A stretch of DNA of 64,000 bases from Akkermansia muciniphila (GTDB lineage: Bacteria; Verrucomicrobiota; Verrucomicrobiia; Limisphaerales; BJHT01): the NCBI GenBank assembly GCA_945861535.1, contig CAMAUZ010000006.1:1-64000 (forward strand), given 5' to 3'. The number at the start of each line of letters is the position of its first letter. The first letter of the stretch is position 1. A program made the translations under genes and the position numbers. The notes beneath the pieces are model-generated. The model did no database searches, was not told where the DNA came from, and worked only from the letters and a program-made list of their open reading frames with translations. This document shows, piece by piece, positions 21,561 through 64,000 of the stretch.

Positions 21561-21636
21561 GTAGCTCGACACTCCAATGTCGAGACCAAGGAGTGCTGGG
21601 AACGCTTCGACTCTCGACATTGGAATGTCGAGCTAC
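21561..21636. repeat. palindromic repeat GTAGCTCGACA...
   Basis: The left arm GTAGCTCGACACTCCAATGT (continuing CGAG) mirrors the right arm ending ATTGGAATGTCGAGCTAC, with about 28 bp between them. It fills the gap between two epimerase genes and overlaps the last codons of the downstream gene only slightly. It could form a strong hairpin in the transcript. Confidence 0.8.
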
Positions 21637-35178: not shown

Positions 35179-36189
35179 ATGATCTGGAAAGGAATATTCC
35201 ACGACCTCACGCCGCCACTTTGGCAGCACGCACGCGGGCGTTCGCGCGCCTGCGTCGGTCCCTGGGTGGTCGGGGCGGCGCTGCTCCTGGTGGTTGCCGG
35301 CACGGGCTGCTCGGTGCGCAAGTACGCCATCAACCAACTGGGCAATGCGCTGGCCAATTCCGGGACGACGTTCGCCGGCGACGACGATCCGGAGCTGGTG
35401 CGCAGCGCCGTGCCGTTCAGTCTGAAACTGATCGAGAGCCTGCTGGCCGAGACGCCCACGCATCCGGGATTGCTGCTGGCGGCGGCGAGCGGGTTCACGC
35501 AGTACACGTTCGCGTTTGTGGCGGAGGATGCGGATGAAATGGAGGAGAAAGATCTCGCGGCAGCCACGGCGTTGCGGCTGCGGGCGCGCAAGCTCTACAC
35601 CCGCGCCAGAAATTACGGTCTCCGCGGTCTCGAAGTCGCGCATCCGGGCTGGGAGAAAACCTTGCGCACGACTCCCAAGGCCGCCGCAGCGCAGCTCGGC
35701 AAGGCCGACGTGGCGCTGGCGTATTGGACGGCCGCCAGTTGGGGCGCGCTGATCGGCATCTCGAAGGACACCCCCGAAATCCTCGCCGACCAGCTCGTGG
35801 TGGAAGCGTTGATTGATCGCGTGGCCGAGTTGGACGAGGCGTTTGGCGCGGGGGCGATTCATCAGGTGCTGATCCGTTACGAACTCGCGCGCCAGGGCGG
35901 GGCAGGGGATCCGGTCGCACGGGCGCGGCGGCATTACGAGCGCGCGCTTGAGCTGGCCCAGGGGCACCAGGCGGGACCGCATGTGGCGTGGGCGGAAAAT
36001 GTGTCGGTGAAAAACCAGAACGCCGCGGAATTCAAGCGGCTCCTCGAGCAAGCGCTGGCGGTGAAGGTGGACGCCCAGCCCGCGCACCGGCTCGAAAATC
36101 TCATCATGCAGCGGCGGGCGAAGTGGTTGTTGTCCCGCGCCGATGATCTCTTCGTGCCGGCGGAACCGCCGGTCGCAAAGGCTCCCTGA
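35179..36189 (+). CDS. TRAP-transporter associated TatT family protein
   Basis: A 336-residue exported protein. After a basic N-region, a hydrophobic segment VVGAALLLVVAGTGCS ends in a Cys, close to a lipobox, so it is probably a lipoprotein. The body is alpha-helical with TPR-like helices: SLKLIESLLAETPTHPGLLL, then RKLYTRARNYGLRGLEVAHP. TatT is the periplasmic TPR partner of the substrate-binding protein TatP in TRAP transporters. It is 28 bp upstream of the DctP/TatP gene, which supports that partnership. Confidence 0.85.
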   Translation: MIWKGIFHDLTPPLWQHARGRSRACVGPWVVGAALLLVVAGTGCSVRKYAINQLGNALANSGTTFAGDDDPELVRSAVPFSLKLIESLLAETPTHPGLLLAAASGFTQYTFAFVAEDADEMEEKDLAAATALRLRARKLYTRARNYGLRGLEVAHPGWEKTLRTTPKAAAAQLGKADVALAYWTAASWGALIGISKDTPEILADQLVVEALIDRVAELDEAFGAGAIHQVLIRYELARQGGAGDPVARARRHYERALELAQGHQAGPHVAWAENVSVKNQNAAEFKRLLEQALAVKVDAQPAHRLENLIMQRRAKWLLSRADDLFVPAEPPVAKAP

Positions 36190-36217: not shown

Positions 36218-37354
36218 ATGAACCGACTCTTATCCCGATTTTTTGCTTGGAACCTGGTGGTAGGGCGCGCCTGTCCTCAGCGTGCCGCTGAACTGTACGG
36301 ATGCCCCGCCGGCGCGCTGAGGACAGGCGCGCCCTACCCGTCGCGGTTCGTAGCTCTGCTGCTGCTCGCGGGCTGCGTTCTCGGCGGTTCGGCGCAGGCC
36401 GCCACGGTGCGGCTGCGGCTGGCGACGCTGGCGCCGAAGGACACTTCCTTTCACCAGAGCCTCCAGAGCATGGGCGAGAAGTGGAAGCAGACCTCCACCG
36501 GCGGCGTGACGCTCACGATCTACACGGACGGCACGATGGGCGGCGAGGCCGACATGGTGCGGCGGATGCGCGTGGGACAAATCCAGGCGGCGCTGATTTC
36601 TGGCTCGGGCCTGGCGCAGATCGATGACTCGGTCACGGCCCTGCAGGCGATGCCGATGATCTATCACTCGTTCGCGGAGTTTGAGTACGTGCAGGACCGG
36701 CTGCGCCCGATGATCGAGAAGCGGATGCTCGAGAAGGGTTTTGTCATGTTGTTTTTCGGGGACGCCGGGTGGGTGAAATTTTTCTCCAAACGGCCGGGCA
36801 CGCTGCCGGCCGAGTTTGTGAAAATGAAAATGTTCGCGTGGGTCGGCGACTCGCGGACGATCGAGGTGATGAAAGCTGTCGGCGTGGACACCGTGGCGTT
36901 GGAACAGACGGACGTGCTCACCGGCCTGCAAACCGGCCTGATCGACGTGGTGCCGACCATCCCGGTGGTGGCGTTGACCGGCCAGTTTTACGGCCCGGCG
37001 TCGCATGTGCTCGACCTCAACTGGACCCCGCTGGTGGGGGCGACGGTGATCACCAAAAAGGCCTGGGACACGGTGCCCGAGGGCCAGCGCAAGGCGATGC
37101 TCGCCGCGGCGGCGGTGGCCGGAGATGAGATTCGCAAGCGCAGCCGCCTCGAGGCGGATGAAGCCATCGTGGCGATGCAGAAGCGCGGCTTGAAAGTCAC
37201 CACGCTGACGCCCGGCCAGCTCGGCGAGTGGCGGAAATTTTCGGAGACGGTGTATCCGAAAATCCGCGGCAAGAACGTGCCGGCGGACCTGTTCGACGAG
37301 GTGCAACGCCTGCTCACCGAGTTCCGCGCGAAACCCGGCGCGGCCGCGCAATGA
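36218..37354 (+). CDS. TRAP-transporter solute-binding protein (DctP/TatP), repeat inserted in leader
   Basis: A 378-residue periplasmic binding protein. The mature part from about residue 63 shows the DctP fold: VRLRLATLAPKDTSFHQSLQ, GGVTLTIYTDGTMGGEADMV, and the carboxylate-binding TGLQTGLIDVVPT. The leader is split: the start MNRLLSRFFAWNL and the hydrophobic core FVALLLLAGCVLGGSAQA are separated by 26 codons translated from a perfect 78-bp palindrome (36260-36337). Without it the leader would be a normal signal peptide. The gene overlaps the membrane-subunit gene by 4 bp. The ligand is unknown. Confidence 0.85.
   Translation: MNRLLSRFFAWNLVVGRACPQRAAELYGCPAGALRTGAPYPSRFVALLLLAGCVLGGSAQAATVRLRLATLAPKDTSFHQSLQSMGEKWKQTSTGGVTLTIYTDGTMGGEADMVRRMRVGQIQAALISGSGLAQIDDSVTALQAMPMIYHSFAEFEYVQDRLRPMIEKRMLEKGFVMLFFGDAGWVKFFSKRPGTLPAEFVKMKMFAWVGDSRTIEVMKAVGVDTVALEQTDVLTGLQTGLIDVVPTIPVVALTGQFYGPASHVLDLNWTPLVGATVITKKAWDTVPEGQRKAMLAAAAVAGDEIRKRSRLEADEAIVAMQKRGLKVTTLTPGQLGEWRKFSETVYPKIRGKNVPADLFDEVQRLLTEFRAKPGAAAQ
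36260..36337. repeat. 78-bp palindromic element inside the TRAP binding-protein leader
   Basis: Two perfect 23-bp arms beginning GTAGGGCGCGCCTGTCCTCA (36260-36282) and its inverse (36315-36337), with a 32-bp centre. The length is exactly 26 codons, and the frame stays open on both sides. A related element is at 63580-63653 inside the RND permease gene. Confidence 0.9.
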
Positions 37355-39210
37355 GCGAGCCGGCCGCCAGCGGCGTCGCGCCGACAGACCGCAGTTTCCT
37401 CGGACGGCTCCGCACCTGGGCCACGGCCGGCGAGAACTGGACCGTCGTCGCGTGCATGGCCGTGATGATGGTCCTGCCGGTGGTCGAGATCGTGCTGCGC
37501 AAGGTTTTCAAGGGCGGGCTGTCTGGCTCGGCAGCGATCACGCAGCACCTCACGCTGGCGGTCGGGATGCTCGGTGGCGTGCTGGCGGCGCGGGATGGCC
37601 GGTTGCTGGCGATGTCCGCGGTGAGCGCCTTTCTCCAGGGGCGCTGGCTGGCGATAGCGCAACTCGTGAGTTCCGTGGTCGCGGTGGTGGTAACCATTTT
37701 TCTCGCGGTGGGCGGCGTGCAGTTGGTGGTCGCGGAGCGGACGTCGGAGAGCGTCATCGCGTACGGCGTGCCGGTGTGGATGGGGGAAATGCTCATGCCC
37801 GTCGGGTTTGTGCTGGTCGCGGTTTATTTGCTGTGGCGGGCGGGGGCATCGTGGAAAACGCGCGGAGCGGCGGTGCTGGCGACGGGCCTGCTTGTGTGGC
37901 TGGTGCTGCATCCGCCGGTTGCTCCCGAGCAACTGGTCACGCCCCTGCTCCTGGGCTTGCTGGTGGCGACGGTGCTCGGGGCACCGGTGTTTGTGACGCT
38001 CGGCGGCGCGGCGGTCATTTTGTTCTGGGGCATTGGCCAGCCGATTTCGGCGATCGCCATCAATCACTACAACCTCGTCACCAACCCGTCGCTGCCGGCC
38101 ATTCCGCTCTTCACGCTGGCGGGTTACCTGCTCGCCGAGGGCGGGGCGTCGAAGCGGTTTGTGCGCGTGTTCGAGACGCTCTTTGGGGGGATGCGCGGCG
38201 GTCCGGCGATTGTCACCTGCCTGGTGTGCGCGTTTTTCACGACCTTCACCGGGGCGTCGGGCGTGACGATTCTGGCGCTGGGCGGGTTGTTGATGCCGGT
38301 GTTGCTGGCGGCGAAATATTCCGAACGCAACGCCCTCGGTTTCCTCACGAGCGCCGGGGCGCTGGGGCTGCTGTTTCCGCCGTGCCTGCCGTTGATTCTC
38401 TACGCGATCATCGCGAAGGACGTGTCGTTGGAGCAGATTTTTCTGGGCGGACTGATTCCGGGAGTTCTGCTCGTGGCGATGACCGCCGGGCTGGGCGTCA
38501 CACTGGCGCCGCGGCACGACGGGCCGCGCGAGCGGTTTGACGGCGCGGCGGCGTGGGCGGCGATCAGCGCGGCGAAGTGGGAGCTGCTGATCCCGGTGGT
38601 GGCGCTGGTCGGATTGCTGGGCGGCTTTGCGACGCCGGTGGAGAGCGCCGCGCTCACGGCGCTCTACGCGTTCTGCGTCGAGGTGTTCGTTTACCGCGAC
38701 CTGAATTTGCGCAAGGATTTCGGCCGCGTGTTCACCGAGGCGGGGCTGGTGGTCGGCGGGGTGCTGTTGATTCTCGGCGTGGCGCAGGGATTTACGAACT
38801 ACCTCGTGGATGAGCAGATCGCCGCCCGCGCGATCGAGTGGGTGACGGTCAACATCCATTCGAAACTGGTGTTTCTGCTCGTTCTGAATCTCTTCCTCTT
38901 CGCCGTGGGCTGCCTCATGGATGTGTACTCGGCGATCATCGTGGTGGTGCCGCTGATGGTGCCGATGGCGCGCGCCTTCGGGATTGATCCGGTGCATCTC
39001 GGGATTTTGTTCCTCGCCAATCTGGAGCTGGGCTACCTCACGCCGCCGGTGGGGATGAACCTTTTCCTCGCGTCCTACCGCTTCAACAAACCGCTCTCGG
39101 AGGTGTATCGCTCGATCGTGCCGATGCTGCTGGTGCGCGTGGTCGGCGTGTTCATCATCACCTATCTGCCGATCCTCTCGACCCTGCTGCCGAAGTGGTT
39201 CGGGAAATGA
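37351..39210 (+). CDS. TRAP-transporter fused small+large permease (DctQM)
   Basis: A 619-residue membrane protein from ATG 37351 (ATGA overlap with the binding protein). The first about 200 residues are DctQ-like (four helices; VVEIVLRKVFKGGLSGSAAI). The rest is DctM: FFTTFTGASGVTILALGGLL, ALGLLFPPCLPLILYAIIA, and the C-terminal LGYLTPPVGMNLFLASYRF. DctM carries the sodium-driven transport path. With TatT and TatP this makes a complete three-gene TatT-P-QM transporter. Confidence 0.9.
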   Translation: MSEPAASGVAPTDRSFLGRLRTWATAGENWTVVACMAVMMVLPVVEIVLRKVFKGGLSGSAAITQHLTLAVGMLGGVLAARDGRLLAMSAVSAFLQGRWLAIAQLVSSVVAVVVTIFLAVGGVQLVVAERTSESVIAYGVPVWMGEMLMPVGFVLVAVYLLWRAGASWKTRGAAVLATGLLVWLVLHPPVAPEQLVTPLLLGLLVATVLGAPVFVTLGGAAVILFWGIGQPISAIAINHYNLVTNPSLPAIPLFTLAGYLLAEGGASKRFVRVFETLFGGMRGGPAIVTCLVCAFFTTFTGASGVTILALGGLLMPVLLAAKYSERNALGFLTSAGALGLLFPPCLPLILYAIIAKDVSLEQIFLGGLIPGVLLVAMTAGLGVTLAPRHDGPRERFDGAAAWAAISAAKWELLIPVVALVGLLGGFATPVESAALTALYAFCVEVFVYRDLNLRKDFGRVFTEAGLVVGGVLLILGVAQGFTNYLVDEQIAARAIEWVTVNIHSKLVFLLVLNLFLFAVGCLMDVYSAIIVVVPLMVPMARAFGIDPVHLGILFLANLELGYLTPPVGMNLFLASYRFNKPLSEVYRSIVPMLLVRVVGVFIITYLPILSTLLPKWFGK

Positions 39211-63267: not shown

Positions 63268-64000
63268 TTAACTGGTTTTCTCGCCGCTTGCACCGCTGAA
63301 CTGCGGACTCCCCGGATCATCGGGATCGAGCGACGCCGAGCGCGTGTGCTTGCCCGCCATCACAATCGCGAACACCGACGGCAGGATGAACAGCGTCGCC
63401 AATGTCGCCGCCGCCAGACCGCCGATCACCGCGCGCCCGAGCGGCGCGGTTTGCTCTCCGCCGTCGCCGAGACCGAGCGCCATCGGCAACATGCCCGCCA
63501 TCATGGCGAAGCTCGTCATCAGGATCGGCCGCAGCCGCGAAGTCGCGCCACTGAGCGCTGCGTCCTTCGCCGACGGCTGGTAGGGCGCGCTGTCCTCAGC
63601 GCGCCGCTCGGGGGCCGGTGCGTCCGCGGCGGGCTGAGGACAGCCCGCCCTACCCACGCGCGCCCGCTCCGCAAATGTCACCAGCAAAATCGCATTCGCC
63701 ACCGCCACGCCCACCGCCATGATCGCGCCCATGAAGCTCTGGATGTTCAACGTCGTGTGCGTCAGCCACAACGTCAGCGCCACGCCCGCGATCACCGCGG
63801 GCACCGTCGAGATCACCACGACCGCGAGCCGCACCGACTGAAAATTCGCCGCGAGCAGCAGGAAAATCACCACCACCGCCAGCGCCAGCCCGTTGCGCAA
63901 CCCCGCGAACATCTCCTCCATCGGCACAATCTGCCCGCGCACCGCGACGCTGGTCTTCGCCGGCGGCTCGCCCACTTCCTTCAACGCCCGCCGAATCTCC
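63268..64000 (-). CDS. RND-family efflux permease, C-terminal part (cut by the window edge)
   Basis: An open frame entering from the right edge and ending at 63268. [40 protein letters not shown] and [20 protein letters not shown] are the standard C-terminal membrane helices of RND exporters. Between FAERARV and [10 protein letters not shown] it carries about 26 residues encoded by a 74-bp palindrome (63580-63653); relatives have a short linker there, in a cytoplasmic loop. The reading frame stays open. The N-terminal part lies beyond the window. Confidence 0.85.
63580..63653. repeat. 74-bp palindromic element inside the RND permease gene
   Basis: Arms GTAGGGCGCGCTGTCCTCAG (63580 on) and GCTGAGGACAGCCCGCCCTA (63633-63653), 21 bp with one mismatch. 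It belongs to the same family as 36260-36337, which sits in another gene. With a few flanking bases the insertion is a multiple of three. Confidence 0.85.

Follow-up and report, generated by a model that had tools for sequence, protein, structure and literature searches.

The 78-bp palindrome at positions 36260-36337 (plus strand) of the window, as we call the whole stretch of 64,000 nucleotides that was analysed, is a copy of a REPIN, a head-to-head dimer of GTAG-tagged REP units, and lies in the leader of tatP (36218-37354, plus strand), the gene of a 378-residue TRAP solute-binding protein of the DctP family (PF03480). Comparison with related genomes makes it probable that a GTAG REPIN inserted into tatP with the reading frame kept, and that the 26 residues added in this way are tolerated in the n-region of the signal peptide.

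The palindrome in the tatP leader

The tatP gene stands between tatT (35179-36189, plus strand), which encodes the T-component of the TRAP transporter (PF16811), and a fused dctQM gene (37351-39210, plus strand) for the membrane subunits (PF04290 and PF06808). Its leader (36218-36400, plus strand) consists of MNRLLSRFFAWNLV, the 26 residues VGRACPQRAAELYGCPAGALRTGAPY encoded by the REPIN, and PSRFVALLLLAGCVLGGSAQA; the REPIN-encoded residues sit before the hydrophobic core, in the polar n-region, and the peptide predicted from a translated REPIN is, for example, AAELYGCPAGALR. The motif LLLAGC in the same leader (36353-36376) is a possible lipobox, such that TatP may here be a lipoprotein.

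The element is composed of a left REP unit (36260-36286, plus strand; GTAG followed by GGCGCG-C-CTG-TCCT-CAG-CGTGCC, with one G.T wobble in its own stem), a 24-nt spacer (36287-36310, plus strand) and a right REP unit (36311-36337, minus strand) identical in sequence to the family variant GTAGGGCGCGCCTGTCCTCAGCGCGCC. Each unit begins with GTAG and continues as an imperfect-palindrome stem-loop with a 9-bp stem and a TCCT-type loop; the head-to-head inverted order of the two units yields one long hairpin, in which the two GTAG tags pair with each other. The length and coordinates given in a preliminary description of this DNA were accurate, as were the two 23-bp inverted arms reported there, but the palindrome is not perfect as a whole: its two inverted 27-nt units differ by one mismatch and are separated by the 24-nt spacer. 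Pairing in the arm is perfect for 23 bp, is interrupted by one mismatch and then resumes, so that with the flanking G and C included the arms extend over 29 nt at 97% complementarity, with 22 nt in between. DNA folding of the element gives -40.3 kcal/mol, against a mean of -17.1 for shuffled sequences (z = -11.6; 0 of 200 shuffles as good). The stem of the single unit is likewise conserved in structure: across 15 unit variants, 92.6% of cells are paired, two-sided changes occur at 3 pairs, and the pairing exceeds that of every shuffle and every slid control, although this covariation is supporting rather than independent evidence because the variants were picked by hand from the matches. A G precedes GTAG at 192 of 192 unit ends of the family, in a survey of unit ends that itself looked for GTAG-like ends.

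The element measures exactly 78 bp, or 26 codons, and is free of stop codons, in agreement with the earlier statement that it adds 26 codons to the leader of a DctP-like gene and leaves the frame open. The only standard in-frame starts ahead of mature TatP are ATG at 36218 and GTG at 36257, both upstream of the REPIN. A start downstream of the palindrome had been raised as an objection to its translation; there is no in-frame ATG, GTG or TTG from 36260 to 36406, and the next standard start, GTG at 36407, is downstream of the hydrophobic core. Exported TatP that is begun at a standard start consequently carries the 26-residue peptide.

The sister species, whose genome is the one other available for the genus (both genomes are drafts), possesses the same operon without the element. 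Downstream of its tatT, which shows 91% identity, come the same ATG start codon and the leader MNRLSSRFPSAVAGLLAVALCCSAAAAHA, in which there is no palindrome and the opening MNRL.SRF is conserved; because tatP of the sister is divided between two contigs, the leader was taken from the one that bears tatT. The comparison with an ortholog lacking the element that had been proposed thus reveals a leader of 29 residues in the sister and of 61 in the window species. This empty site bears out the earlier claim of an inserted repeat, with the qualification that the 32 extra residues comprise 26 from the element and 6 adjoining it, which leaves the exact insertion junction uncertain. Most simply, sequence comparison suggests that the REPIN entered tatP after the split from the sister species, and the near-consensus arms together with the absence from the sister indicate that the insertion is probably young. 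In more distant tatP orthologues the leaders are unrelated and vary in length. Mature TatP is under purifying selection relative to the sister (dN 0.078, dS 0.469, dN/dS about 0.17, a ratio that mostly predates the insertion); with an insertion that looks so recent, it is too early for selection on the altered leader to show.

Abundance and mobilisation of the family

The preliminary description missed that the palindrome belongs to a high-copy repeat. The 27-nt unit GTAGGGCGCGCCTGTCCTCAGCGCGCC matches 149 times per strand of the host genome with at most 3 mismatches, and a reversed control pattern matches 0 times; the unit is accordingly present more than 100 times in the genome of the host, a lake bacterium. 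Exact-ended unit pairs number 105 in the host genome and 18 in that of the sister, and the unit is present in 37 of 293 sampled genomes of the order, in some with altered stems. Doublets were searched for with substitutions only, since a fuzzy search tolerant of indels mispaired the units. The host survey covered 96 doublets in stretches taken from an estimated ~150 in the genome and partly chosen by similarity; most are 77 bp (47 of 96) or 78 bp (32 of 96) long, and 90 of the 96 are not gene-internal. Genes were called from ORFs by an iterated codon-usage model seeded on GC3, a model trained on long ORFs having been confounded by shadow ORFs. One intergenic REPIN (L136:3001-3076 in one species, L166:2001-2076 in the other) is common to both, where it precedes the same gene, and its sequence is visibly more conserved than that directly on either side.

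In the general model, GTAG REPs are mobilised by a RAYT transposase. No RAYT match in either draft genome has REPs of the tatP type nearby, and the tatP element is for this reason classified as a REP dimer and not as part of a REPtron; as the genomes are drafts, a linked RAYT gene may be missing from the assemblies. The transposase at locus L009 was considered as the mobiliser and dropped: the protein is short and of the IS200 type, and about 740 bp separate it from one doublet. A second GTAG REP family (GTAGCTCGACATTCCAATGTCGAG) has a doublet in the window at 21561-21636, between two minus-strand genes, and counts 61 units in the host genome and 2 in the sister. A RAYT gene (G000:C118:18793-19116, locus L204) has units of this second family on either side, an arrangement that looks like a true REPtron.

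Copies inside other genes

The search of the genus inside and outside genes that had been suggested locates six of the 96 host doublets and three of 20 sister doublets within genes, and all nine are in frame and free of stops. The host copies lie in tatP, an RND pump, ispG (L081), a DUF1365 gene (L107) and, twice, the gene of an L117 protein; those of the sister lie in a DNA methylase gene and in two genes that, from their Pfam domains, we take to be ileS and mfd. The families of the host genes were checked with Pfam and NCBIfam, those of the sister by Pfam domains. The gene-internal share in the host, 6%, is rough because the survey was partial and partly chosen by similarity. Five further doublets (L075, L105, L123, L081:9549 and L164 of the sister) were not counted as gene-internal, their upstream parts being poorly coding and later starts being available or likely.

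Seven of the nine gene-internal copies are read in frame 1 (VGR...) and two in frame 3 (GRARLS...). These two frames are open in most copies of the element, whereas frame 2 is open in 3 of 96, because the TAG of GTAG is read there. A length divisible by three is found in 4 of the 6 gene-internal host doublets versus 31 of the 90 others, a difference that is not significant alone (p = 0.19). All three doublets of 72 bp, a multiple of three that is otherwise a rare length in the family, are gene-internal (L154:3554-3625 in ileS, L168:2001-2072 in the DNA methylase gene and L081:3001-3072 in ispG). Same-strand doublets whose flanks are coding yielded no frameshifted gene, as would follow from the loss of copies that disrupt genes; the five that are out of frame resembled disrupted genes at first, but all lie between complete tandem ORFs.

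The RND copy lies in the window as well, 27 kb from that in tatP. It occupies 63580-63653 (minus strand) in the 3' part of an RND efflux permease gene (ACR_tran, PF00873; 63271-63999, minus strand), in a loop just before the conserved RLRPILMTS. The sister species has a copy at the same place, with an identical right arm, a decayed left arm and the frame kept, and three relatives have no such insert; judged from this distribution, the RND REPIN is older than the species split. Its dN/dS is about 0.74 over an insert of only 29 codons, compared with 0.06 and 0.16 in the flanks, and the peptide of this copy thus evolves almost neutrally.

In ispG the REPIN occupies a linker that carries unrelated short peptides in relatives (L174-L180), as expected of a linker that would be tolerant of length. 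These peptides differ between relatives and are repeat-like (KSQISNFKSQ, NSQFPISNSQFP, VAHSALRTPHSAL), and ispG of one relative has an additional insert, LAPTGGEGRGEGA, elsewhere in the gene. The L117 protein, which combines WD40, GTPase and TIR domains, contains two in-frame REPINs (L117:3001-3246) that apparently arose via a 168-bp tandem duplication. The DUF1365 gene (L107:2700-2790, L181) begins in both species with the repeat-like RSAEHRSAG...AEQCSALRS, which is possibly another translated palindromic repeat.

Explanations and known systems

We propose that a GTAG REPIN, of a family abundant in the genus and presumably mobilised by a RAYT-type transposase, inserted at the 5' end of tatP. 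Entry of 78 bp, a multiple of three, in a frame that skips the TAG of GTAG would allow the open frame to survive, this combination of length and frame being what keeps tatP open. The 26 added residues would lodge in the long polar n-region ahead of the hydrophobic core, and the cell may tolerate them because that region, in common with the linkers and loops occupied by the other gene-internal copies, is probably indifferent to length; copies that shift the frame would presumably be purged by selection. Translation of the REPIN would then lengthen the n-region, with neutral effect, in a protein that is still exported. The preliminary description had suggested that the host tolerates the element as peptide, and the nine in-frame copies in two species and the near-neutral RND peptide support tolerated translation, with translation and export of TatP itself presumed from sequence. 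The 28-bp hairpin that the mRNA can form near the tatP start could depress translation.

If the REPIN were instead 5' untranslated sequence, translation would begin at a non-standard CTG before the core (36356-36362) and the hairpin would act only in the mRNA. Three in-frame CTG codons do stand where the core begins, and N-terminal REPs elsewhere often lie outside the true gene (PMC3733652), but a leader begun at CTG would be without a basic n-region, standard starts are wanting between element and core, and the ATG and MNRL.SRF conserved in the sister head an ordinary leader there; such a start is therefore unlikely. The youth of the element, near consensus and missing in the sister, and an n-region lengthened to about 44 residues would also suit a recent damaging insertion, in which the frame is open, export is inefficient and tatP is becoming a pseudogene. 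We regard this as improbable, since the rest of tatP is intact and under purifying selection (mostly exerted before the insertion) and other conserved genes hold in-frame copies, of which one predates the split from the sister.

That the element is kept as useful, its hairpin or the longer n-region tuning translation or export of TatP, is very improbable: the hairpin about 40 nt past the start codon is very stable and the shared intergenic REPIN has outlasted its flanks in conservation, yet the sole gene-internal copy shown to be old enough for the test evolves nearly neutrally, the host proteins are functionally unrelated, and the ispG linker of relatives holds unrelated peptides. A broader proposal regards the REPINs of the lineage as a recurrent source of in-frame segments, with the n-region of the signal peptide, the RND loop and the ispG domain linker recolonised by different repeat families and some copies co-opted for the tuning of translation or export; it is quite unlikely. 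Tolerated insertion remains the explanation that we prefer.

The closest known kind of element is the intragenic GTAG REP, ahead of the Rickettsia palindromic element (RPE). Intragenic GTAG REPs encode 20-30 residues, are most numerous in Opitutus terrae, likewise a member of the Verrucomicrobia, and have repair and tRNA-synthetase genes among their hosts (Di Nocera et al. 2013, PMC3733652). The present family resembles them in its GTAG stem-loop units, head-to-head dimers, high copy number and mostly intergenic location with some in-frame copies in genes, and resembles the case of O. terrae in its verrucomicrobial host and in a DNA-repair gene, here mfd, among the genes entered. The assignment to GTAG REPs rests on these shared features; that study describes 24 GTAG families, of which the unit may be one. 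Beyond what was reported there, the present copies include a site in a signal peptide, a matched empty site and a copy common to two species. The REPINs of Pseudomonas fluorescens are likewise inverted REP doublets that form one long hairpin, are dispersed over the genome and are conserved as a unit, but are almost all extragenic (14 of 1,067 16-mers overlap genes; Bertels and Rainey 2011, PMC3116915), unlike the 6 of 96 doublets that are gene-internal here. The present family also differs in that no linked RAYT gene was found for it in the two drafts.

The likeness to Rickettsia elements that had been pointed out holds for the phenomenon, palindromic repeats that keep the frame of the unrelated protein genes they lie in and whose peptides are apparently tolerated, and fails for family identity. 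PMC3733652 places RPE-4 and RPE-6 in the CGTC superfamily, and an assignment of the tatP element to their type was rejected, as both of its units start with GTAG and its sequence is unrelated. Some N-terminal RPE cases are reported as expressed, according to work cited in PMC3733652.

The phenomenon is thus already known from Rickettsia and Opitutus terrae, and the tatP copy is a good new example of it. REPs at N-termini are usually dismissed as start misannotation, and PMC3733652 warns that they are often misannotated as genic. The tatP case answers this warning better than most, and is a clean, testable one because of its conserved start, the empty site of the sister and the lack of a standard downstream start. 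The RND copy shows that an insert of this kind can last as long as a species pair has existed under almost neutral evolution, and this makes the genus a good place to study how new segments come to be accepted by bacterial proteins.
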